Shown piece after piece: positions 7,467 to 21,833 of a stretch of DNA of 32,702 bases. The position numbers and the translations under genes are program-made. Each line of letters opens with the position of its first letter. Position 1 is the stretch's first letter. Source of the DNA: Clostridiaceae bacterium (GTDB lineage Bacteria; Bacillota; Clostridia; Oscillospirales; Acutalibacteraceae); NCBI GenBank assembly GCA_016282855.1, contig JAEELT010000065.1:1-32702 (forward strand), in the 5' to 3' direction. A model generated the notes under the pieces. That model was not told the origin of the DNA, searched no databases, and was given only the letters and a program-made list of their open reading frames with translations.

Positions 7467-8585
7467 TTAAAGAAGAACGGTAAAAACCTCTTCACCGCCG
7501 TTTACAAACACCTCTAGAGTATAGGCGTCACGTAGGCAATGAAGGCTCTTGATTTCTCCGTTATATACTACATCTTCACGCCCTGAGCGTTTTATGGAAA
7601 ACCCGCCGTCGGTGCGCATTAACGCGCTGTCACTCCCGGAAAGGAATTTCCTTACCTCCGATGCGGGAAAAGCGCGCAGCTTGCCGCCCTCAAAAGTTAT
7701 TTCGCGTGGCACGGACATTACGCCTATATCCCGCTCTTTGAAGCCGGCATATTGCCACCCGGGAATCCAGGAAACAAGAAGAGCTCTGCCCTGTGAATCA
7801 CGGAAAATCTGCCCGGCATACTGATCGGGCCCTTTATCGATTTCGCTCTCGTACCGGGCGGTAAAAATCCCGTTTTCAAAAGAACCGACAGCCAATGAGA
7901 AGCTGTGGCCTTCTTCTCTGCATACAGACGCGGAAAGCAAATACTCATCACCGAACTTTATAAAAGAAGGGCATTCGGCAAATTTCGCGTTGTTCCACTC
8001 CCTCATAACACCGTTATAGCGCCAGTTCAGAAGGTCATCGCTTTCATACAGCAGCAAAACCGCGGTGTGCCTGCCGGGATTGCCGGAAGCCATAACACAC
8101 CGGTATTTACCGTCGGCAAAGCACACGGCAGGGTCCCTGAAATCGGAGGAGCCTTCGGGAGGATATGATGATATAACGGGATTGCCCGCATACTTTACAA
8201 AACTTATTCCGTCGGATGAATATGCCACACCGACAGTCTGCTCACCGTCTCGCACGCAGGCATAAAAGAGATAAAGAATATCATCTTTAACTATTGCCGT
8301 ACCCGACCAGCACCCATCACTGTCATATTCTCTGTCGGGGCAAAGAGCCACAGGAAGCTCTTCAAAGTGTATAAAATCCTTGGTTATCGCGTGACCCCAG
8401 TGCATACTTTCGTGCCACGGGGTTTCAAAATGCGGAGCGTGCTGATAAAAAATATGGTAATACCCTTTGAAATAAGCAAGCCCGTTAGGGTCGTTTATCC
8501 ACCCCTTCGCCGGTCTGTAATGGTAAACGGGAGTGCCGTATTCGGGTAAAGTATCTTCGCCTGTATCTTCAGTAAACATATCCAC
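7467..8585 (-). CDS. Glycoside hydrolase family 32 (fructosidase/sucrose hydrolase), compact form
   Basis: A 372-residue protein with the GH32 five-bladed propeller. W-I-N-D-P-N-G near residue 30 carries the nucleophile Asp, F-R-D-P-A-V gives the transition-state-stabilising RDP motif near residue 150, and A-E-C-P-S gives the acid/base Glu near residue 205. The family hydrolyses beta-fructosides such as sucrose, fructooligosaccharides, inulin or levan. No signal peptide is seen, so it probably acts on imported sugar. After the propeller only about 70 residues remain, although the terminal LEVFVNGGEEVFT strand of the beta-sandwich is present, so that module is shortened. A GTG at 8585 lies eight bases after GGAGG and is preferred; an ATG at 8579 is also possible, while the GTG at 8594 lies inside the SD. 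A TATAAT-like element is at 8615-8620 but no good -35 was found. Confidence 0.9.
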   Translation of the reverse strand: MDMFTEDTGEDTLPEYGTPVYHYRPAKGWINDPNGLAYFKGYYHIFYQHAPHFETPWHESMHWGHAITKDFIHFEELPVALCPDREYDSDGCWSGTAIVKDDILYLFYACVRDGEQTVGVAYSSDGISFVKYAGNPVISSYPPEGSSDFRDPAVCFADGKYRCVMASGNPGRHTAVLLLYESDDLLNWRYNGVMREWNNAKFAECPSFIKFGDEYLLSASVCREEGHSFSLAVGSFENGIFTARYESEIDKGPDQYAGQIFRDSQGRALLVSWIPGWQYAGFKERDIGVMSVPREITFEGGKLRAFPASEVRKFLSGSDSALMRTDGGFSIKRSGREDVVYNGEIKSLHCLRDAYTLEVFVNGGEEVFTVLL

Positions 8586-12078: not shown

Positions 12079-13470
12079 TCAGTTTCCGGCAATTTTTTCA
12101 CGTATCAGGTTAAATATCCTTAAAATAAGATGTATCGGCCTGAGAAAAATGCCGAGAGCATCGCTGTTGCCGTAAATACGGCAGGCCTTATATGTGCCGT
12201 CGGTATTACGCACTATCTGATAAGTTCTGATGGTTATTTTGCCGTTTTCATTTTCAGCGCCGATTGTGAGATTTACGGCAAGCGGTGAGCAGGGCACAAT
12301 AAGTATTTTGCCGTCAAGTGTGTAATTATTAACCTTTACTCCGTTTACAAGCACAAAATCGACTTTATCAAGAGTGCCTATATCAAGGGCAAGCCCTTCG
12401 TATGTTTCCGTTTCGGGAAGCACGGAAAGAATCCGCCTTGTGATATAATTATAGCCGTTCTGGCTCGGATGAGTGCCGGCAAACGAATTATCCTTGAAAT
12501 CGCCGAGCAGTGACCACCCTTTTTCGGTAGCGAGAGTTTCGGCGTTGCTTATATCAGCAAAAAGAACATCATACTCTTCCTGCCACTTTCTCATACAGTT
12601 ATTCATGGAAACAGTAATGGCCGACATCAGAGAGCCGAGCGGAGCGATTGTCTCATCGGCAAGCGTTAAATCAGAAACAAGGTTGAACGCGCCAACCATA
12701 ACTATATCTGCGTCGGGGTTGCGCTCCCTGAGTGTTTTAATCAGCAGAGGATAATATGTCTTCCAGTATTCCTCCCCTGCTTTCAGCTCTTTAATTGCAG
12801 TCGAAACAAGCTCTTTTATTGCGTCTGTGCTTCTTAAATCGAAGCTCAGTCCGCCGGCAAGGCTGTTTCCGTTTGTGGCTATGCGATAAGCGCGGTAAAA
12901 CACGTCCGCCATACCGAGCTGAACCGTTATAAGGCTTGCTCTGTCAATAAGCTCATAAATGTTCCCGCACTGTGCGCACTCGCCTTCAGCATAAGATTCA
13001 CCGTGAGTTCCATTAAATGACTGCTCACAGCCGAAATACTTAAGCATATCTTTATAGTACATATAATCAAGCTCGGTATCGGTAAAATTATCCTCAACGC
13101 CGAGCAGGTCAAGCATCATTGCCACAGTCATTCCGGGATAAGCGCAGGGCCAATATGTGCCGCTGCTGTCCGTAATATCCGACGGTGTTTCACACCCCAC
13201 TGCCTGAGCGATAAGATAAGGGAAAGCGCCCTCAACATTGCGCAGTTCAAACAGGTCATACTGCCCGCCCTCCGCTTTATCGGTGTCAATATAAAATCCG
13301 TCTGCGCCGCAGCCTCTCGATATGCTGTCACCTATTGCGAGATAACCGCCCCGGCTGCCGTATTGCCTTACCGTTTCGGCGGTTGCGGCAAAGGATGTTA
13401 AAGCACAGGCCGATAAGATAACCGCCAGGGCAAGAAAAACCGACAGAGTTTTCACAAAGTTCCTTTTCAA
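12079..13470 (-). CDS. Secreted SGNH/GDSL-family hydrolase
   Basis: A 463-residue exported esterase/lipase-like protein. The signal peptide (KRNFVKTLSVFLALAVILSA, cleaved near SFA-A) is followed by block I L-A-I-G-D-S-I-S-R-G at about residue 45 with the nucleophile Ser. Block III is near VTVQLGMADVF (usual GxND; the Asn is replaced here, reading G-M-A-D). Block V G-T-H-P-S-Q-N-G-Y near residue 340 carries the catalytic His. Cysteines at C-E-Q and C-A-Q-C-G near residues 165-190 may bind metal or form disulfides. Likely an esterase acting on extracellular acyl or acetyl esters. The start is a TTG at 13470, seven bases after GGAGGG, which gives the signal peptide directly. Its own promoter is at 13505-13533. 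Confidence 0.82.
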   Translation of the reverse strand: MKRNFVKTLSVFLALAVILSACALTSFAATAETVRQYGSRGGYLAIGDSISRGCGADGFYIDTDKAEGGQYDLFELRNVEGAFPYLIAQAVGCETPSDITDSSGTYWPCAYPGMTVAMMLDLLGVEDNFTDTELDYMYYKDMLKYFGCEQSFNGTHGESYAEGECAQCGNIYELIDRASLITVQLGMADVFYRAYRIATNGNSLAGGLSFDLRSTDAIKELVSTAIKELKAGEEYWKTYYPLLIKTLRERNPDADIVMVGAFNLVSDLTLADETIAPLGSLMSAITVSMNNCMRKWQEEYDVLFADISNAETLATEKGWSLLGDFKDNSFAGTHPSQNGYNYITRRILSVLPETETYEGLALDIGTLDKVDFVLVNGVKVNNYTLDGKILIVPCSPLAVNLTIGAENENGKITIRTYQIVRNTDGTYKACRIYGNSDALGIFLRPIHLILRIFNLIREKIAGN

Positions 13471-13504
13471 AACAAATCCCTCCGTAAAGCTGTTTCCGAA
13501 AAAA

Positions 13505-13533
13505 ATAATATCACAGAAAGAGCTTTTTTTCAA
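13505..13533 (-). promoter_or_regulatory. Sigma-A type promoter of the SGNH hydrolase gene
   Basis: On the minus strand, TTGAAA (13533-13528), a 17-base spacer and TATTAT (13510-13505) precede the GGAGGG and TTG start of the hydrolase gene by a short leader. Confidence 0.7.
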
Positions 13534-13553
13534 CACTCCCGTTAAAAGAATAA

Positions 13554-13581
13554 CCGGCAGCTGAATAAACCGGGCTGCCGG
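13554..13581 (-). terminator. Intrinsic terminator after the STAS gene
   Basis: CCGGCAGC (13554-13561) pairs with GCTGCCGG (13574-13581), an 8-bp GC-rich stem with a 12-base loop. On the minus strand it is followed by TTATTCTTTTAAC. It lies 27 bp after the STAS stop codon and just before the SGNH promoter. Confidence 0.75.
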
Positions 13582-13608
13582 CAAAACAGAGCAAAACTAT
13601 GAATCAAA

Positions 13609-13905
13609 TCAGATAATTGTGAGGATATCCGAAAATCCGGTAACATCGAATATTTCTCTTACAACATCATTGGGATTGGCTACTGTTACATTGCCCTTAC
13701 CCATAATCGACTTCTGAGCGGAAAGAAGCACTCTGAGACCGGCGGAAGAAATATACTCAAGACCGGAGAAATCAAATGTGATATCGGTTAATTCATCAAT
13801 ATCTTCCTTAACAGCTTTTTCAAGATCGGGCGCGGTTGCTGTTTCAAGCCTGCCTTCAATTATGTAGTCGGCTTTTGTTCCGTTTTTTGTTTTGCTGATT
13901 GTCAT
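13609..13905 (-). CDS. STAS-domain anti-sigma factor antagonist (SpoIIAA/RsbV-like)
   Basis: A 98-residue single STAS domain. The diagnostic segment T-F-D-F-S-G-L-E-Y-I-S-S-A-G-L-R-V-L-L at about residues 45-63 contains the serine that an anti-sigma kinase phosphorylates in this family. The C-terminal helix-strand (NPNDVVREIFDVTGFSDIL) is typical too. Family members switch partners with a serine kinase/anti-sigma factor. No such kinase or sigma gene is next to it, so its partner must be encoded elsewhere. The ATG at 13905 has GGGAG eight bases upstream. It is monocistronic, with promoter 13946-13974 and terminator 13554-13581. It may not act in sporulation; this family also controls stress and signalling modules. 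Confidence 0.9.
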   Translation of the reverse strand: MTISKTKNGTKADYIIEGRLETATAPDLEKAVKEDIDELTDITFDFSGLEYISSAGLRVLLSAQKSIMGKGNVTVANPNDVVREIFDVTGFSDILTII

Positions 13906-13945
13906 TGTAATCTCTCCCTGAATAAAATATCCATACGGCGCAGAA

Positions 13946-13974
13946 ATAATAACACAAAAAATTAAAAATATCAA
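13946..13974 (-). promoter_or_regulatory. Sigma-A type promoter of the STAS gene
   Basis: On the minus strand, TTGATA (13974-13969), 17 bases and TATTAT (13951-13946), about 40 bases upstream of the STAS start codon. Confidence 0.7.
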
Positions 13975-14049
13975 GCCGAAACAGTTTAAAAATCTCCTGC
14001 CCTGTTTTACAGTCAGATTGCTTCAAACGTCTGAACAAGCAAAAAAATA

Positions 14050-14078
14050 TTGACATCAGCGCAATAAAGTGATAAAGT
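14050..14078 (+). promoter_or_regulatory. Promoter of the aromatic amino acid operon
   Basis: TTGACA (14050-14055), 17-base spacer, TAAAGT (14073-14078; 4 of 6 consensus). The predicted start near 14085 is about 25 bases before the leader-peptide ATG and over 210 bases before pheA. This is the only good plus-strand promoter seen upstream of the operon. Confidence 0.75.
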
Positions 14079-14110
14079 TTAAGAAATCAAACGAAAGGAG
14101 TTCCCGTTTT

Positions 14111-14209
14111 ATGACAAACAATAAAGAAACCCGTACAAGCGGGAATTCATATTATTACGCTTACGTTCGCTTTTTTGCGGGCTTTTATTTCCGTACACAA
14201 AAATCATAA
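14111..14209 (+). CDS. Tyr/Phe-rich leader peptide (pheL-like)
   Basis: A 32-codon ORF with ATG at 14111, stop TAA at 14207-14209 and a strong SD (AAAGGAG) ten bases upstream. Residues 14-27 read YYYAYVRFFAGFYF: five Tyr and four Phe in 14 codons. The rest (MTNNKETRTSGNS and RTQKS) is polar and contains no other aromatics. Such clustering of the operon's end-product amino acids is the hallmark of an attenuation leader peptide, and the downstream operon makes exactly Phe and Tyr. A short CCCG-TACAAG-CGGG hairpin (14130-14143) in the early codons could act as a pause site. The peptide itself is probably not functional; its translation is the signal. It is too short for usual gene callers. Confidence 0.85.
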   Translation: MTNNKETRTSGNSYYYAYVRFFAGFYFRTQKS

Positions 14210-14246
14210 AGCAAGCCATACGTAAGCAGAAATATTTAGTTACCAT

Positions 14247-14277
14247 GCGGTTCTGTTTCGTACGGAGCCGCTTTTTT
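14247..14277 (+). terminator. Attenuator terminator before pheA
   Basis: GCGGTTCTGT (14247-14256) can pair with ACGGAGCCGC (14262-14271), ten pairs including two G-U, around a five-base loop, directly followed by TTTTTT (14272-14277). It lies between the leader-peptide stop and the pheA SD, 21 bases before the pheA ATG, where it can only control readthrough into the operon. Confidence 0.85.
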
Positions 14278-14298
14278 AATTGACGAGGAGAGAAAAAA

Positions 14299-15405
14299 AT
14301 GAACGAAGACATCAGCGTTGCAAGAAAAGAGATAGAAGAGGCCGACAGGCAGATTGCCAGATATTTTGAAATACGTATGAACGCCTGCGCAAAAGTTGCG
14401 CAGTACAAAAAAGAATTCGGCATACCTATTGAAGATAAGGCTCAGGAAGAGAGAGTAATTGAGCGGAACATCGGATTTATAGAAGACGAAAAGCTCAAAA
14501 ACTATTTCTACTCCGTTACCCGTTGCCTTATATCGGAAAGCAAGAAGTATCAGTTCCGCCTCAATGAAGGTATGAAAATCGCGTATAACGGCACTCAGGG
14601 AGCCTTTGCTTATATAGCGGCAAAAAGAGTTTTCCCCAAATCACTTCTTATACCATACAGCTCTTTTGAAGACGCGTACAATTCCGTAATCAGCGGCGAA
14701 TGCGACACGGCAATACTCCCCATTGAAAACAGCTCCGCAGGAGAGGTCGGGCAGGTAATAGACCTTATGTATTCCGGTCCTCTCAATGTAAACGGCGTTT
14801 ATTCACTGCCTGTTACACATAATCTTATAGGCACAGAGGAATCATCGCTTGAAAGCATTGATGTGGTTATAAGCCATCCGCAGGCTCTTGCCCAGTGCGA
14901 CACTTTTATTAAAAATCACAAAATACAGACTCTCACCGCAAGCAGCACAGCAGAAGCGGTAAAATATGTGGCAAGAGAAAACAACTCGCATCTCGCGGCA
15001 ATCGGCAGCGAGGAATCAGCTGACCTTAACGGACTTAAAATCATAAAAAGCAATATAAACGAAAGCCGTGAAAACACCACAAGATTCGCCGTCTTTTCAA
15101 GAGCGGGAGCTGACAGCCCAAATATCCGGAAAGACAACAGGTTCATTTTAATGTTTACCGTTAATGACGAGGCGGGCGCTCTGGTGAAAGCTCTGAATGT
15201 TATCGGCGACTGCGGTTTCAATATGCAGGTGCTCAGAAGCCGTCCCGTTAAGAACAAAGCGTGGCAATACTATTTTTACACGGAAATCGAGGGCGATTAC
15301 TCAACACCGGAAGGCGCCGAAATGATTAAAAAGCTTTCCGAGCGCTGCGAAACAATCAAAATCGCAGGTCACTACAGTGAAAGCGGTGAAAAAAATGATA
15401 ATTAA
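14299..15405 (+). CDS. pheA: Bifunctional chorismate mutase / prephenate dehydratase
   Basis: A 368-residue P-protein. Residues 1-85 are an AroQ-type chorismate mutase helix bundle (EIEEADRQIARYFEIRMNACAKVA). Residues about 92-270 are prephenate dehydratase, beginning K-I-A-Y-N-G-T-Q-G-A-F and containing the catalytic N-T-T-R-F motif near 260. Residues about 280-355 are an ACT domain (FTVNDEAGALVKALNVIGDCGFNM, then L-R-S-R-P-V-K, like the ESRP motif) that binds Phe for feedback inhibition in the family. It converts chorismate to prephenate and then phenylpyruvate. The ATG at 14299 has GAGGAG eight bases upstream. First structural gene of the operon and directly under the attenuator; aroB overlaps its end by 11 bp. 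Confidence 0.96.
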   Translation: MNEDISVARKEIEEADRQIARYFEIRMNACAKVAQYKKEFGIPIEDKAQEERVIERNIGFIEDEKLKNYFYSVTRCLISESKKYQFRLNEGMKIAYNGTQGAFAYIAAKRVFPKSLLIPYSSFEDAYNSVISGECDTAILPIENSSAGEVGQVIDLMYSGPLNVNGVYSLPVTHNLIGTEESSLESIDVVISHPQALAQCDTFIKNHKIQTLTASSTAEAVKYVARENNSHLAAIGSEESADLNGLKIIKSNINESRENTTRFAVFSRAGADSPNIRKDNRFILMFTVNDEAGALVKALNVIGDCGFNMQVLRSRPVKNKAWQYYFYTEIEGDYSTPEGAEMIKKLSERCETIKIAGHYSESGEKNDN

Positions 15406-16402
15406 AGCACAGGGATATGATATCCTGATAGAAAAAGGTTCTCTGTCAAAAGCGGGAGAGTATCTTGACCTGAACAGAAGAGTAATAATAGTTACCGATG
15501 ACGGAGTACCCGGAAAATACGCGCAAGCCGTGCTCGCCTTCTGCGGCGGTGGTTCCTTTATCAAGACCGTGCCTCAGGGAGAGGGCAGCAAAAGTTTCGG
15601 TACTCTGCAGGATATACTTAAGGCAATGACAGAAGCAGGCCTCACAAGAAGTGACTGCGCCGTTGCTGTCGGCGGAGGCGTAGTCGGTGACCTAACCGGC
15701 TTTGCAGCATCGATATATATGAGAGGCATCGATTTTTACAATATACCAACAACAATGCTCTCACAGATTGATTCGTCTGTCGGCGGAAAGACAGCAATAA
15801 ACTTTCTCGGTCTGAAAAACATAATCGGAGCTTTTTACAGGCCGAAAAAAGTAATGATTGACGAAAACACTCTTTCAACCCTCACCCTGCGCCAGATAAA
15901 CAACGGCCTTGCAGAATCAATCAAAATGGCTACTACAAGCGACCCGGAGCTTTTTGATTTGTTTGAAAGCGGCAATCCTTATGATGTTCCCGGCACAGTA
16001 ATAGAAAAGTCGCTCAGAATCAAAAACGAAGTGGTAAGCAAGGACGAAAAAGAAAAGGGACTTCGCAGAGTGCTCAACTTCGGCCATACGATAGGTCACG
16101 GAATAGAAGCAAACTGCGAAGGGAAGCTTTACCACGGCGAATGCGTGGCAATCGGTATGCTGCCTATGTGCTCCGACTCGCTGAGAGCAAGGCTCAGCGC
16201 AGTGCTTGAAAAATACAATCTGCCGACATCCTGCGACATAGATGCCGCCAAGATATCGGAAGCCGTGCTGCACGATAAGAAATCAAACGGGGATTCAATA
16301 ACAGCCGTTTGCGCGGATGAGCCCGGCAAATTCAGATTCATATCAATGAAGCCTGATGATTTCAGAGAAAAAATAAACTCAATTACGGAGAACAGAAAAT
16401 GA
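15395..16402 (+). CDS. aroB: 3-dehydroquinate synthase
   Basis: A 335-residue NAD- and Zn/Co-dependent enzyme converting DAHP to 3-dehydroquinate, the second shikimate step. It shows V-A-V-G-G-G-V-V-G-D-L-T-G-F-A-A-S near residue 90, IPTTMLSQIDSSVGGKTAIN, the metal-ligand region LAESIK, and R-V-L-N-F-G-H-T-I-G-H-G-I-E near residue 225, with Glu/His metal ligands. The ATG at 15395 gives the usual family start (MIIKAQGYDILIEKG); its SD is weak (GGTGA), consistent with translational coupling to pheA, which it overlaps by 11 bp. An upstream GTG at 15377 is less likely. It overlaps aroC by 4 bp (ATGA). Confidence 0.95.
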   Translation: MIIKAQGYDILIEKGSLSKAGEYLDLNRRVIIVTDDGVPGKYAQAVLAFCGGGSFIKTVPQGEGSKSFGTLQDILKAMTEAGLTRSDCAVAVGGGVVGDLTGFAASIYMRGIDFYNIPTTMLSQIDSSVGGKTAINFLGLKNIIGAFYRPKKVMIDENTLSTLTLRQINNGLAESIKMATTSDPELFDLFESGNPYDVPGTVIEKSLRIKNEVVSKDEKEKGLRRVLNFGHTIGHGIEANCEGKLYHGECVAIGMLPMCSDSLRARLSAVLEKYNLPTSCDIDAAKISEAVLHDKKSNGDSITAVCADEPGKFRFISMKPDDFREKINSITENRK

Positions 16403-17490
16403 AAAACACATTCGGAAACAGCGTTTCTCTCACGTTATTCGGAGAAAGCCACGGCGAATATACGGGAGCCGTGATTGACGGACTTGCTCCGGGTATAACA
16501 GTTGACGAAAAATATATCGCAAACAGGCTGTCGCTGCGCAGGCCGTCCGGCAAAACCGGCACAAAGCGCATTGAGAAAGATAATTTCAGAATAATCAGCG
16601 GAGTTTTCCGCGGCAAAACCACAGGCACGCCGCTTTGCGTTATTATCCCCAACGAAAATGTGAAAAGCGAGGATTATGCCCGTGAATCGATTATTCCCAG
16701 ACCGGGTCACGCCGATTATACCGCCAACTGCAAATATCACGGCTTTGAAGATTACAGAGGCTCGGGGCATTTCAGCGGCAGGCTGACCGCTCCGCTTGTA
16801 GCGGCAGGTGCAATAATGCAATATGCCCTTGAAAACAAAGGAATATATATCGGAACTCATATTGCAAGGTGCGCCAAAATCAATGACAGGCCGTTCAAAA
16901 ACATTAATGAAGATATAAAAACTCTCGGCAAAAAGAAGTTTGCCGTTCTCGATGAAGCAAAAAGCAAAAAGATGCAGGAAGCAATTATCCTTGCAGCAAA
17001 AGACGGCGACAGCGTAGGCGGAATACTCGAAACAGCCGTTACCGGTATACCCGCAGGAACGGGAGAGCCGTGGTTTGACACTATGGAGAGCATGCTTTCA
17101 CATGCTTTGTTTTCGATACCCGCCGTTAAAGGTGTGCAGTTCGGAAACGCATTTAAAAATGTTGACCTGCCCGGCAGCAAATACAATGATGAATTCGCAG
17201 TAAGCGCGGGCAGCATTATCACCAGAACAAATCACAACGGCGGAATAAACGGCGGTATAACAAACGGAATGCCCGTTATTTTCAGCTGCGCCGTAAAACC
17301 GACGCCCTCTATTTTCAAACAGCAAAACAGCGTAGACCTGACAGAAATGGAAAACACCGTTATTCAGACCTCCGGCAGGCACGACCCCGCAGTGATTCAC
17401 AGAGCCAGAGCGGTAGTTGATGCAGTAACAGCTCTTGTAATCTGCGATATGCTTGCTTTGAGGTACGGCACTGATTTTCTCGGAGAATGA
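16399..17490 (+). CDS. aroC: Chorismate synthase
   Basis: A 363-residue enzyme that removes phosphate from EPSP to form chorismate using reduced FMN. The three family signatures are seen: G-E-S-H-G-E-Y-T-G-A-V-I-D-G at residues 15-28, the G-R-x-T-A-like segment F-S-G-R-L-T-A-P-L-V-A-A-G-A near 130, and R-H-D-P-A-V-I-H-R-A near 330. Overlap with aroB is the 4-bp ATGA, with a GGAG SD inside the aroB end. aroA starts one base after its stop codon. Confidence 0.96.
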   Translation: MKNTFGNSVSLTLFGESHGEYTGAVIDGLAPGITVDEKYIANRLSLRRPSGKTGTKRIEKDNFRIISGVFRGKTTGTPLCVIIPNENVKSEDYARESIIPRPGHADYTANCKYHGFEDYRGSGHFSGRLTAPLVAAGAIMQYALENKGIYIGTHIARCAKINDRPFKNINEDIKTLGKKKFAVLDEAKSKKMQEAIILAAKDGDSVGGILETAVTGIPAGTGEPWFDTMESMLSHALFSIPAVKGVQFGNAFKNVDLPGSKYNDEFAVSAGSIITRTNHNGGINGGITNGMPVIFSCAVKPTPSIFKQQNSVDLTEMENTVIQTSGRHDPAVIHRARAVVDAVTALVICDMLALRYGTDFLGE

Positions 17491-17491
17491 T

Positions 17492-18700
17492 ATGAAAGCT
17501 GAAATCTTCCCATCTGTCGCGCACGGCACCTTAACCGCTCCTCCTTCAAAGAGCGATGCTCACAGAGCTCTGATTTGCGCCTGCCTTGCCGACGGGATAA
17601 GCACAATAGAAAATATTGACTATTCTCAGGATATTCTCGCTACCCTTGACTGTCTTGAAGCCCTGGGAGCTGAGATTGAAAGAGGGAGCGGCTTTGTTAA
17701 AGTCCTCTCCCCTGTCAGAAAAACGGACAGCGCAGTTCTGAACTGCAGAGAAAGCGGAAGCACTCTCAGGTTTATAATACCGCTTGCTCTTTTTTATTGC
17801 GGTGAATGCACCTTCACCGGCAGTGAAAAGCTTATGTCAAGACCTCTTTCGGTTTATTCTGATTTATTTAATCAAAACGGTATAATATGCAATCCGGAAA
17901 AAGACAGGTTAAAACTCAAAGGTACAATCAGCCCCGGCAGATTCATTATTCCCGGCAATATAAGCAGTCAGTTTATAAGCGGTTTGCTTTTTGCACTGCC
18001 TTTGGCAAACGGTAACAGTGAAATTGAAATAATTCGTCCTTTTGAAAGCAGGCCGTATGTTGATATGACCGTTTCAGCACTCAGGAGATTCGGCATTAAA
18101 ATCGATTGCCATAATGATAACCGTTTCACAGTTTGCGGCTCTCAGTCTTACAGGCATACCGACTGCTCAGTTGAAGGTGACTGGTCAAACTCAGCCTTTT
18201 TTGACGCTCTGAATTATCTCGGTGGAAATATCAATATGGAAGGGCTTGACCCGGAAAGCGCTCAGGGAGACAAAGTTTATAAAACCGTTTTTGAAAAACT
18301 CAGTCAAAAAAATCAGGTTATCGATTTATCGAACTGTCCGGATCTCGGCCCGATATGTATGGCTCTGGCATATAAAAACGGCGCATTGTTTACCGGCACC
18401 GACCGCCTTAAAGCTAAAGAAAGCGACCGCTGTTCTTCAATGAGCGAAGAACTTGCAAAGTTCGGCATAAAAAGCAAAGAAGGCAGCAACAGTTTTAAGG
18501 TTTATCCCTCAGAAATACACAGGCCGTGCGAAGCTCTTAACGGACATAACGACCACAGAATTGTAATGGCTCTCTCTGTTTTATGCACAATAACCGGAGG
18601 CATAATAGACGGCGCTCAGGCTGTATCAAAAAGCCTGCCGGATTATTTCAAAATGCTGAAAAGACTCGGAATTAAGGTGAATCTATATGAAACTGCTTAA
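17492..18700 (+). CDS. aroA: 3-phosphoshikimate 1-carboxyvinyltransferase (EPSP synthase)
   Basis: A 402-residue enzyme joining PEP and shikimate-3-phosphate. Seen are P-P-S-K-S-D-A-H-R-A near residue 18, the PEP-loop motif R-E-S-G-S-T-L-R-F near 92, ISSQFISGLLFALP, D-R-L-K-A-K-E-S-D-R near 310 and N-D-H-R-I-V-M-A-L near 355. The PEP loop differs from the class I type (N-A-G-T-A-M-R-P): Ser replaces the Thr and Phe replaces the Pro, as in Clostridia-type enzymes. The length is a little below the usual ~425. ATG 17492 is one base after the aroC stop, with GGAG six bases upstream. tyrA overlaps its end by 14 bp. Confidence 0.95.
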   Translation: MKAEIFPSVAHGTLTAPPSKSDAHRALICACLADGISTIENIDYSQDILATLDCLEALGAEIERGSGFVKVLSPVRKTDSAVLNCRESGSTLRFIIPLALFYCGECTFTGSEKLMSRPLSVYSDLFNQNGIICNPEKDRLKLKGTISPGRFIIPGNISSQFISGLLFALPLANGNSEIEIIRPFESRPYVDMTVSALRRFGIKIDCHNDNRFTVCGSQSYRHTDCSVEGDWSNSAFFDALNYLGGNINMEGLDPESAQGDKVYKTVFEKLSQKNQVIDLSNCPDLGPICMALAYKNGALFTGTDRLKAKESDRCSSMSEELAKFGIKSKEGSNSFKVYPSEIHRPCEALNGHNDHRIVMALSVLCTITGGIIDGAQAVSKSLPDYFKMLKRLGIKVNLYETA

Positions 18701-19547
18701 TAATCAGAACATACTCATCGTCGGACTTGGCCTTATGGGCGGCAGCTATGCCAAAGCTCTCAAGCGCCTTGACTTTCATATTGAAGCCATTGACACAAAC
18801 AGGGAATCTGTTGATTACGCTCTTGAAAACGGCATTATAGACCGCGGATATACATCTCCCGATGCCGAAGCAATCGGCAGGGCTGATGTTGTGGTGTTCG
18901 GCCTTTACCCCGCTGTGTTTAAAAAGTGGATAGCGGATTATCAGCATTATTTCAAAAGCGGGGCTGTAATAACCGATGTAACCGGTGTCAAAGGCTGCAT
19001 TGTATATGATATCCAGGCAATGCTCCGTGATGATGTTGAATTTATCGCCGCTCACCCTATGGCGGGGCGTGAGGTTTACGGAGTAAAGAACAGCACCGAA
19101 AAAATGTTCAGAGACGCAAACTTTCTTGTGGTCCCGACAGAAAAGAATACAGAGGAATCCATTGAATGGTGCAAGGAACTCGGAAGGCTTCTCGGCTTTA
19201 TAAATGTAACGGTTCTGTCCCCTGAAGAACACGACAGGATGATAGGCTTCGTTTCTCAGCTTACCCACTGCATTGCGGTAGCGCTTATGACCTGCTCCGA
19301 TAACACTCATCTTGCGGACTATACCGCCGATTCTTTCAGGGATCTTACGAGAATAGCGAATATAAACGAAGTGATGTGGAGCGAACTGTTCCTGCTCAAT
19401 AAAGAAGCTCTGCTCAATGATATTGACAGGTTTACAGAAGAATTGACCGAAATCCGAGGTCTGCTTGAAAAAGACGACAGAGAAGGCCTTAAAGATAAAA
19501 TGCGCCTTTCCACTCAGAGAAGAGCCGCATTCAACAAAAAGAATTAA
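18687..19547 (+). CDS. tyrA: Prephenate dehydrogenase
   Basis: A 286-residue enzyme that oxidises prephenate to 4-hydroxyphenylpyruvate, the Tyr branch. The NAD-binding Rossmann motif I-V-G-L-G-L-M-G-G-S-Y-A is at residues 10-21 and ends at the Asp of A-I-D-T-N, which suggests NAD preference. The substrate His is in A-H-P-M-A-G-R-E near 127, with S-Q-L-T-H-C-I-A near 190. No ACT or chorismate mutase domain is fused, so Tyr feedback on this enzyme is not evident. The ATG at 18687 has AAGGTG seven bases upstream, and the start overlaps aroA by 14 bp. Confidence 0.94.
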   Translation: MKLLNNQNILIVGLGLMGGSYAKALKRLDFHIEAIDTNRESVDYALENGIIDRGYTSPDAEAIGRADVVVFGLYPAVFKKWIADYQHYFKSGAVITDVTGVKGCIVYDIQAMLRDDVEFIAAHPMAGREVYGVKNSTEKMFRDANFLVVPTEKNTEESIEWCKELGRLLGFINVTVLSPEEHDRMIGFVSQLTHCIAVALMTCSDNTHLADYTADSFRDLTRIANINEVMWSELFLLNKEALLNDIDRFTEELTEIRGLLEKDDREGLKDKMRLSTQRRAAFNKKN

Positions 19548-19566
19548 AAGAAAAGAGGAAAATAAA

Positions 19567-20598
19567 ATGAGTATGAATATGGACTTTGAGAAAAAGCTCG
19601 CTATACCGATGGAAGTTAAAGAAATGTTCCCTGTATCCATACAGGTTGAACAGACCGTTCAGAAAAAAGGGGCGGAATTAAAAAACATTTTCAGCGGAAA
19701 GGATAACAGATTCCTTCTGATTATAGGGCCCTGCTCCGCCGACAAAGAAGACAGCGTGATGGAGTATATCTACCGCCTTGTTCCGGTGCAGGAAAAGGTA
19801 AAAGACAAGATAATGATTATACCGCGTATTTACACAAACAAACCGAGAACCACCGGCTCCGGATACAAGGGAATGCTCCATCAGCCCGATCCCGAGGCAA
19901 AGCCCAACCTCTTTGAAGGTATTACCGCAATACGTCAGCTTCATATGAGAGCTGTAAGCGAAACCGGTTTTATCTGCGCGGACGAAATGCTTTACCCGAG
20001 CAATCACAAGTATCTTGATGATATTCTGGGCTATGTTGCCGTTGGAGCAAGAAGCGTTGAAAATCAGGAACACCGGCTCACTGCAAGCGGTATTGATGTG
20101 CCCGTAGGTATGAAAAACCCCACAAGCGGTGATATTGATGTAATGATGAACGCGATTACCGCAGCGCAGCATCCACATCATTTTATATACAGGGGCTGGC
20201 AGGCACATTCACACGGCAACCCCTACGCTCACGCGATTCTGCGCGGATATGTAAATAAGCACGGCAATTCGCTGCCCAACTATCATTATGAGGACCTTTC
20301 ATTTGTAAATGAAAAATACCTTGCCTCCGGTCTTGAAAACCCCGCCGTTATTGTTGACTGCAATCACGCAAATTCAGGAAAACATTTTATTGAGCAGATA
20401 AGAATATCAAAGGAAGTTTTAAGCAGCAGAAAGTATAACAGCGATATCAAAAAGCTTGTAAAAGGTTTTATGATTGAAAGCTACCTTGAAGACGGCAACC
20501 AGAGCGCGGGCGGCATTTACGGCAAATCAATCACCGACCCATGCCTCGGCTGGGAGAAGACAGAAAGGCTGATTTACGATATGGCTGAAATTCTCTGA
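19567..20598 (+). CDS. aroF: 3-deoxy-7-phosphoheptulonate (DAHP) synthase, type I alpha
   Basis: A 343-residue enzyme condensing PEP and erythrose-4-phosphate, the first shikimate step. It matches the E. coli AroF/G/H class: I-I-G-P-C-S-A-D near residue 55, P-R-I-Y-T-N-K-P-R-T-T-G-S-G-Y-K-G near 90, VGARSVENQEHR, V-D-C-N-H-A-N-S-G-K near 265 (metal-ligand region), and an E-D-G-N-Q loop near 310. The N-terminal extension found in feedback-regulated enzymes is present, but the effector (Phe, Tyr or Trp) cannot be read from the sequence; the letter F is a convenience. The ATG at 19567 has GAGG eight bases upstream and lies 19 bp after tyrA; a second ATG at 19573 is possible. Confidence 0.93.
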   Translation: MSMNMDFEKKLAIPMEVKEMFPVSIQVEQTVQKKGAELKNIFSGKDNRFLLIIGPCSADKEDSVMEYIYRLVPVQEKVKDKIMIIPRIYTNKPRTTGSGYKGMLHQPDPEAKPNLFEGITAIRQLHMRAVSETGFICADEMLYPSNHKYLDDILGYVAVGARSVENQEHRLTASGIDVPVGMKNPTSGDIDVMMNAITAAQHPHHFIYRGWQAHSHGNPYAHAILRGYVNKHGNSLPNYHYEDLSFVNEKYLASGLENPAVIVDCNHANSGKHFIEQIRISKEVLSSRKYNSDIKKLVKGFMIESYLEDGNQSAGGIYGKSITDPCLGWEKTERLIYDMAEIL

Positions 20599-20612
20599 TA
20601 AGGATGATTAAT

Positions 20613-21833
20613 ATGTACGGACTGCTCGGAAAAAGCCTGTCACATTCTCTCTCTCCGCAGATTCATTCATATTTCGGCGATTATGAATATGAGCTTTTCT
20701 GCCGCAAAGAGAATGAGCTTGACACATTCTTTTCGGATAACTCAATCAATGCATTCAATGTTACAATACCGTATAAGGTGGAAGCATTTAAAAGATGTGA
20801 TTTCCTCAGCGATACAGCTTTAAAAACCGGGAGCGTCAATACCGTTGTGCGCAGCTCGGGAAAGCTGTACGGCTATAACACGGATTATTACGGCTTCGCT
20901 TATATGACGGGCAAACTCGGAGTTGATTTCAAAGATAAAAAGGTTGTGATTCTCGGCACAGGCGGTGCCTGCCGCACGGTAAAAACCGCCTGCGCGGATT
21001 TCGGCGCTGAAAGCACCGTGATTATCGGCAGAAAAAGTGAATTCAACTATGATAACCTTTATCTCAATTACGATGCCGATATTATCATAAATACCACTCC
21101 GGTCGGAATGTATCCGAATAACGGCGAAGCGGCTGTTAATATCAGTGATTTCAGCAAGCCGGAAGCCGTTATTGATTTGATATACAACCCCGCAAAAACC
21201 CGCCTGCTCATTGAGGCTGAAAAGCTTGGAATTCCGTGCATCAACGGCTTATCCATGCTCGTAGCTCAGGGGCTCAGATCATCGGAATTATTTTTCGGCA
21301 AGACATATGATAAAGGTTTAATTGAAAAAGCGCTTGCCGATATTTCACTGAGAAATGCGAATATTGTGATTATCGGTATGCCGGGATGCGGTAAATCAAG
21401 CGTCGGCAAAGCTGTTGCCGAAAAGCTCGGCAGAGAGTTTACCGACACAGACAGCCTGATTGAAGCGTCAAGCGGAAAAAGCATACCGGAAATATTTGCA
21501 AATGAGGGTGAAGAAGTTTTCAGGGACATTGAAACGAGAGAAATAAGAGAATGCTCAAAGAAACTCGGCAATGTAACAGCAACCGGAGGAGGCGCTGTCC
21601 TCAGAGAAATCAACAGAAACTGCCTTAAACAAAACGGAATTATCGTATATCTGAGAAGACCCATTGAACACCTTTCGCAAAACGGAAGACCCCTCTCATC
21701 AGGCTTTGATGCAGTAAAAAAGCTGTATGAGGAAAGAAAGCATATATACGAAACCTTTGCCGACTTTACGGTTGACGCAGGCAAAAGCCCTCAGGAGACA
21801 GCCGAAACAATAATAGAACGCATAGGCTTATAA
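20613..21833 (+). CDS. aroE/aroK: Shikimate dehydrogenase / shikimate kinase fusion
   Basis: A 406-residue two-domain enzyme for two consecutive shikimate steps. Residues 1-245 are AroE: S-L-S-H-S-L-S-P at 8-15, F-N-V-T-I-P-Y-K with the catalytic Lys near 58, Y-N-T-D-Y-Y-G-F near 89, the NADP loop G-T-G-G-A-C near 117, N-T-T-P-V-G-M and N-G-L-S-M-L-V-A-Q-G. After a short linker, residues about 248-406 are AroK: P-loop G-M-P-G-C-G-K-S-S-V-G near 254, D-T-D-S-L-I, F-R-D-I-E, T-G-G-G-A-V-L and the lid N-G-R-P-L. Both active sites look complete. The ATG at 20613 lies eight bases after AAGGA; the ATG at 20604 overlaps that SD. Last gene of the operon, followed by a terminator. Confidence 0.94.
   Translation: MYGLLGKSLSHSLSPQIHSYFGDYEYELFCRKENELDTFFSDNSINAFNVTIPYKVEAFKRCDFLSDTALKTGSVNTVVRSSGKLYGYNTDYYGFAYMTGKLGVDFKDKKVVILGTGGACRTVKTACADFGAESTVIIGRKSEFNYDNLYLNYDADIIINTTPVGMYPNNGEAAVNISDFSKPEAVIDLIYNPAKTRLLIEAEKLGIPCINGLSMLVAQGLRSSELFFGKTYDKGLIEKALADISLRNANIVIIGMPGCGKSSVGKAVAEKLGREFTDTDSLIEASSGKSIPEIFANEGEEVFRDIETREIRECSKKLGNVTATGGGAVLREINRNCLKQNGIIVYLRRPIEHLSQNGRPLSSGFDAVKKLYEERKHIYETFADFTVDAGKSPQETAETIIERIGL

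Follow-up and report, generated by a model that had tools for sequence, protein, structure and literature searches.

A predicted leader-peptide attenuator rich in tyrosine and phenylalanine codons ahead of an aromatic amino acid operon in a Clostridia lineage

Introduction

T-boxes are the usual tRNA sensors in Bacillota, and the leader-peptide attenuators of the trp, his and pheA operons are a long-known class, classical in enteric bacteria and with few descriptions from Clostridia. The locus studied here, from a Clostridia genome of 2.3 Mb in 140 contigs, places a short reading frame dense in tyrosine and phenylalanine codons directly ahead of an aromatic amino acid operon, and raises the question of what kind of sensor, if any, stands before these genes. 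The initial annotation, made from the letters of this DNA, had read the region as a Phe/Tyr leader-peptide attenuator. Comparison across relatives supports that reading, and we consider it very probable that the leader is a ribosome-mediated attenuator of transcription, responding to how much charged tRNA-Tyr and tRNA-Phe is available. Throughout, the window denotes the whole stretch of DNA analysed (32,702 nucleotides).

The leader and its operon

The window contains a predicted leader open reading frame (ORF) that has a Shine–Dalgarno (SD) sequence and is rich in codons for the end products of the operon behind it (Table 1). The 32-codon ORF with nine Tyr or Phe residues among the 14 of its run, the strong SD, the promoter-like site and the terminator, which ends 21 bases before the pheA ATG (14299), were all found as the initial annotation had described them. 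The gene content (pheA, tyrA and shared pathway genes) bears out its further statement that the operon makes Phe and Tyr, together with the shared precursor chorismate. A promoter-like site resembling that of the window is seen in alignment in the relatives L032–L034. The predicted fold of the whole leader (−54.4 kcal/mol) is more stable than the folds of 200 shuffled sequences (−36.5 ± 4.1 kcal/mol), none of which was as good.

As listed, the DAHP synthase ORF overlaps tyrA (19465–19547); its start probably lies nearer 19550, because the alignments of many homologues begin only at about residue 22–36. On the other strand, a STAS-domain anti-sigma-antagonist-like protein (13609–13974) and a GDSL lipase (12079–13584) are encoded by genes that point away from the aromatic operon.

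Table 1. Positions of the predicted leader elements and of the operon in the window
Feature	Position	Strand	Description
Promoter-like site	14050–14078	+	TTGACA at 14050, 17 nt, TAAAGT to 14078; TG preceding the −10
SD of the leader ORF	14094–14100	+	AAAGGAG
SD-closing hairpin	14098–14148	+	14098–14113 (part of SD and ATG) with 14132–14148; MFE fold
Leader peptide ORF	14111–14209	+	32 codons and stop; MTNNKETRTSGNSYYYAYVRFFAGFYFRTQKS
Regulatory codon run	14150–14191	+	YYYAYVRFFAGFYF; 5 Tyr and 4 Phe among 14 codons
1:2 (anti-antiterminator) stem	14159–14166 / 14220–14227	+	GCTTACGT/ACGTAAGC; MFE fold; 5′ arm inside the aromatic codons
ORF hairpin	14165–14182	+	GTTCGC – TTTTTT (two Phe codons) – GCGGGC
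Region 2	14216–14231	+	CCATACGTAAGCAGAA; antiterminator 5′ half
Intrinsic terminator	14247–14277	+	10 bp stem (14247–14271), 5-nt loop, T6 tail
Region 3	14251–14265	+	TTCTGTTTCGTACGG; terminator upper 5′ arm, loop and first four 3′-arm bases; pairs with region 2
pheA	14299–15405	+	Fused chorismate mutase–prephenate dehydratase (PF01817, PF00800)
Operon remainder	15377–21833	+	aroB, aroC, aroA, tyrA (prephenate dehydrogenase), DAHP synthase, aroE–aroK fusion

Leaders in related genomes

The fetched loci that have a PheA match, 756,390 bases in total with some genomes included twice, were scanned on both strands with fixed criteria (an SD, at least 6 F, Y or W in 12 residues, and a terminator at most 95 nt from the stop codon). 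Of the leader units returned, 22 lie no more than 420 nt upstream of pheA and one, in L107, lies elsewhere, at 616 nt from its PheA match on the upstream side; the reverse strand gave none. The 22 include pairs from two collections (L032/L038, L033/L039 and L034/L040), and L053 and L054 share one peptide. Look-alike leaders that fall outside these criteria were seen in L011, L036, L017, L026 and L069/L070. In L069/L070, the leader upstream of pheA has 15 residues (MFKKRYYFIFSNVME), a strong SD and a terminator (CACCACTT/AAGTGGTG), and may be a minimal fourth layout. Six named relatives were found, all Clostridia or Bacillota assemblies and three of them labelled as from rumen.

Long-type PheA (E up to 1e−70) occurs in 73 of 398 family genomes, and PheA of some kind was matched in 41 of 45 genus genomes. 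An aromatic leader ORF lies upstream of long-type pheA in 16 of the 22 genus genomes inspected, of which 4 are represented by fragments, one of these (L188) matching weakly, at 41%. Of the six without a leader, at least three (L043, L045 and L047) have pheA close behind another reading frame. At 10 further genus loci with distant PheA (about 27–30% identity) no aromatic leader was found; L057 has no upstream sequence. Likewise, none was found within about 1.5 kb on each side of 30 genus DAHP synthase loci, and 18 of these 30 showed no Rfam family. A covariance model (R1) built from nine type A leaders gave three matches in the 398 family genomes, all from its own training set, and the wider collection of leaders was therefore made through PheA. 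A DNA pattern combining part of the ORF hairpin with the terminator matched 76 of 394 order genomes and was rejected: judged from the matches listed, these are probably due to chance, the site of the window excepted.

The leaders fall into three layouts, for which the letters are our own. Type A (the window, L038–L042, L186, L051, L053, L004, L035 and L036) has CGGTTCTG terminators, type B (L011, L013, L048 and L085) has TCACTTG terminators, and type C (L049, L050, L052, L187, L101, L107 and L108) has GCGGCTTC in five of seven. Leader length is 26–62 residues among the 23 leaders analysed. If the leader is an attenuator, its aromatic codons should be kept in relatives while other residues drift, as the initial annotation had pointed out. 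The aromatic run, the terminator and the competing antiterminator recur in relatives; the seven closest type A leaders keep the run, the ORF hairpin and the terminator but vary in their first and last codons. Across leaders Tyr, Phe and Trp interchange (SYYYAY, SYSYAY, SYFYAY, SYWFTY, SYFALF), with Trp codons in L004, L050–L053 and L107.

Other arrangements were observed around pheA in the family. L088 carries a leader-like ORF (MFSSCYYYFFMMDCPCSAAAR) with an SD at about 7644–7707, which we place ahead of some other gene since it lies about 1.3 kb upstream of pheA. L020 has a type C-like terminator (GGGCGGCTTC...GAAGCCGC) immediately 5′ of pheA and no leader ORF, either a decayed attenuator or an assembly join. 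GTTAAC-type imperfect palindromes near the pheA start in L008, L071 and L188 suggest repressor control of pheA elsewhere in the family.

The terminator and the antiterminator

A stable terminator hairpin was assigned in all 23 leaders, in 19 by script and in four by hand (L011, L107, L186 and L187). Region 2 can pair with region 3 in all 23 (−14.0 to −23.8 kcal/mol), and the core of this pairing has 10 of 10 pairs in each of the seven close leaders. Thus, an antiterminator predicted to be exclusive with the terminator is kept in relatives, in varied sequence: CCCGG and AAGCAGA pair with CCGGG and UCUGCCUU in L036, GUCCGAGCAG pairs with CUGUUUUCGGAC in L051 and GCGAAGCUGC with GCGGCUUCGC in L187, and the pairing in L085 includes 14 consecutive pairs.

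The specificity of the pairing was assessed by permuting partners among 15 representatives, obtained by dropping eight near-duplicate or same-type rows; L017, L026, L069/L070 and L088 and the copies L032–L034, L054 and L185 were omitted from the pairing tests. The sum for own partners was −278.2 kcal/mol, compared with −202.3 ± 13.6 kcal/mol for permuted partners (p about 1 × 10−5), and −243.5 ± 9.7 kcal/mol when permutation was confined within types (p = 2.1 × 10−4); the stretch used in this test was widened to 75 nt after a narrower one had given little and the type B and C sequences had been read by eye, so that the test is not blind. A control stretch upstream of the leader start gave p = 0.20. 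In a first cross-test of five type A representatives, the own pairing ranked 2 of 120 permutations. Shuffling region 2 of each sequence, in the narrower stretch, which truncated this region in types B and C, gave p ≤ 0.05 in 3 of 20 leaders for the 2:3 pairing and in 2 of 20 for 1:2. The pairing of ORF-tail codons with region 3 exceeded that of synonymous recodings in 9 of 11 type B and C leaders (p ≤ 0.05); for the type A leader L004, p = 0.17.

The 1:2 stem that the initial annotation had anchored in the Tyr codons is present in the window, and permutation gives it no support (p = 0.16 in the wider test, 0.59 within types). Among the seven close leaders the stem is invariant and hence uninformative.

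Hairpins in the leader reading frame

In types A and C, codons of the leader ORF form a predicted hairpin whose arms encode V-R and A-G or similar residues and whose 6-nt loop consists of two codons (CGC-TTTTTT-GCG in the window), both of them aromatic in 15 of 19 leaders. In 16 of 19 leaders this ORF hairpin exceeded synonymous recodings in stability (p ≤ 0.05), in a test that used the codon usage of the window operon for all, in which several rows are near-identical and L035 is in another register. Among 13 distinct arm pairs, 97 of 117 cells are paired, compared with 41–58 when the arms are slid. Changes on both sides occur at 3 of nine positions, compared with 2, 3 and 5 in the slid registers, so that these changes do not demonstrate covariation and the case for the hairpin lies in the share of paired cells and the recoding test. 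By analogy with the trp model as outlined in PMC1183508, we propose that it is an RNA polymerase pause hairpin.

A further hairpin would close the SD. For most leaders of types A and C, pairing is possible between the SD, in some with the start codon as well, and codons that precede the aromatic run, as in the window (GGAGTTCCCG/CGGGAATTC), in L036 (GGAGTCC/GGACTCC) and in L050 (GGTATTG/CAATACC). The 3′ arm ends one base ahead of the first Tyr codon in the window and usually lies 0–11 nt before the densest aromatic stretch, farther in L101 and L108. None of 50,000 partner permutations among 16 representatives was as good as the own pairing; by type, p = 0.0004 for A, p = 0.0062 for C and p = 0.50 for B. 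Against synonymous recoding, p ≤ 0.05 was reached in 9 of 17 leaders, and values above 0.05 were obtained for L051, L035, L004, L107 and all four type B leaders. This hairpin probably admits one ribosome on new RNA and then shuts the leader.

Modelled ribosome positions

Folding was modelled for the transcript just as region 3 becomes available, and a 32-nt mask represented the ribosome at each codon in turn; the model is one of equilibrium, not kinetic, and its antiterminator value is the 2:3 pairing as a share of the best-duplex pairs, which may slightly exceed 1. For the window, the value was 0.02 without a ribosome, 0.71 on average across the aromatic run and 0.39–0.75 with a ribosome at the stop codon. 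With no ribosome, 10 of the 11 type B and C leaders had a high value (0.00 in L048), and in all 11 the value fell below half of its maximum 0–3 codons past the last aromatic codon; over three assumed footprints (right edges 10–16 nt), this switch point ranged from −1 to +4 codons. With a ribosome at the stop codon, the value recovered to 0.51 in L013, 0.61 in L050 and 0.75 in L108. Type A switches less cleanly: the value was low on the aromatic codons of L035, L053 and L040, and high without a ribosome in L186, L051, L036 and L004. For types B and C, a drop so soon after the aromatic codons implies that a ribosome beyond the last of them may itself be the off-switch; as region 2 there lies within the last leader codons, an advancing ribosome would mask it directly, and in the model these types appear to rely on such masking.

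Alternative explanations

The peptide rather than its codons could be the sensor, if the VRFFAG core stalled the ribosome on binding free Phe or Tyr or another ligand; TnaC and SpeFL are examples of nascent-peptide arrest by a ligand. Such arrest would suit the VR[FY][FY]AG core, which 10 of the 12 type A leaders retain. However, RNA can explain this conservation, because the core codons form the ORF hairpin that exceeds synonymous recodings and remain paired in L101, L107 and L108, where the residues differ; with Tyr, Phe and Trp swapping positions and the flanks drifting as well, we regard peptide arrest as improbable. Even less credence can be given to a conserved small protein with a function of its own, followed by an ordinary terminator. 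The good SD, the promoter-like site and the conserved middle would be expected of such a gene, but its termini drift, its length varies from the range given above to 15 residues in L069/L070, all but one of the scan matches lie at most 420 nt from pheA, and the pairing between leader and terminator is leader-specific.

An RNA switch or a protein-bound leader (T-box, riboswitch or TRAP-like) might happen to contain an ORF, and T-box matches are indeed found in 45 of 45 genus genomes (44 above the cut-off), including nine at E ≤ 0.001 in the genome of the window; the initial annotation's remark that no T-box is seen here is thus correct for the leader and does not extend to the genome. No Rfam family reached its gathering score in the window, T-box (RF00230) included. 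Within 14030–14310, a search to E 10 gave no T-box and only weak, chance-like matches, the best being a microRNA model on the other strand (E 0.72), and Phe_leader (RF01859, gathering score 55) scored 14.9 bits (E 5.6) on the opposite strand. At 16 family loci around pheA there was no T-box at the gathering score, and only one SAM riboswitch and three tRNAs were found. Moreover, the modelled switch point of types B and C follows the end of the aromatic codons, and an RNA switch of this kind seems very unlikely; the T-box matches and the aromatic leader together indicate that the lineage has both devices. Within the attenuator reading, the antiterminator could have the geometry originally proposed, in which TCCGTAC (14190–14196) captures GTACGGA in the terminator 3′ arm. 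This pairing exists, with a perfect 7 bp in the window, and permutation of leader tails and 3′ arms gives p = 0.0013 overall. Within types, however, p = 0.053, and among the seven close leaders the pairing is perfect in three (L002, L039 and L040), reduced by one mismatch to 6 of 7 pairs in three (L038, L042 and L186) and lost in L041, whereas the 2:3 core is complete in all seven. It is therefore unlikely to be the operative antiterminator, for which region 2 with the terminator 5′ arm and loop is the better candidate.

Discussion

Sequence comparison argues for the predicted ORF, its aromatic codons, the terminator and the antiterminator, and in types A and C for the ORF and SD hairpins as well. 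From this arrangement we infer ribosome stalling, polymerase pausing, premature 3′ ends, the role of the 1:2 stem and the physiological signal. Transcription would start a few bases past 14078, and a ribosome would load on the leader while RNA polymerase is probably held near the 14165–14182 hairpin until the ribosome comes. With Tyr or Phe in short supply, the ribosome would stall within 14150–14191 and cover 14159–14166, leaving region 2 free to capture region 3 as it emerges; the terminator would not form, and pheA–aroK would be transcribed. With Tyr and Phe plentiful, the ribosome would finish and leave, the 1:2 stem would sequester region 2, and transcription would stop at about 14277.

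T-box leaders (RF00230) do the same physiological job, the sensing of tRNA charging; unlike in these, the sensor here is a predicted translated ORF. As in the enterobacterial pheL–pheA, trp and his attenuators, a leader ORF rich in codons for the product is combined with a terminator, an exclusive antiterminator and a hairpin over the control codons (PMC1183508, where the trp layout is given). Unlike pheL–pheA, the leader of the window would read Tyr and Phe, and some of its relatives Trp too; it occurs in Clostridia and has no sequence match to RF01859; its SD would be closed by codons before the control run, and the ORF tail contains region 2 in types B and C. Outside Proteobacteria, uORFC-13-1 of Acholeplasma is described as a predicted uORF with Phe codons before an apparent intrinsic terminator upstream of aroF, and is thus similar in combining these with an aromatic gene; it differs in requiring at least one Phe codon, in preceding only aroF and in its 24 representatives (Acholeplasma and environmental), and its description, as far as it concerns us here, names no antiterminator (PMC8632094). 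The leucine-rich attenuator peptide reported for S. aureus ilv–leu (PMC5794164) and the His leaders described in bacilli (PMC2965389) are likewise cases of leader-peptide attenuation in Bacillota where a T-box serves elsewhere, but they concern other amino acids and operons, and Bacilli.

A search of titles and the beginnings of abstracts found no Phe/Tyr leader peptide in Clostridia, and could have missed earlier comparative-genomics predictions, which do exist. The mechanism being classical, what appears new is the lineage, the mixed reading of Phe and Tyr (in some, Trp), and the proposed SD lock. Taken together, these findings make an attenuator device in Clostridia well supported in silico. 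They suggest that one operon answers to two end products via one peptide, and the hairpin over the SD hints at a way in which a sensor of this kind could be restricted to one ribosome. A stronger version, which we put forward tentatively and hold to be possible rather than probable, is a one-shot, ribosome-counted aromatic sensor: the SD would be open only on new RNA, one ribosome would enter, the hairpin with the aromatic loop would hold the polymerase, and the last aromatic codon would be the trip point.

Leader-peptide attenuation requires that a ribosome follow RNA polymerase closely. PMC13323073 classes the phylum Bacillota as having runaway transcription. Attenuators in Clostridia, in at least three RNA layouts, ahead of an aromatic operon imply that transcription and translation should be coupled here, if not elsewhere, and the one-shot sensor, if true, would require tight transcription–translation coupling in a phylum so classed. 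The leader locus thus offers a ready reporter for testing transcription–translation coupling.
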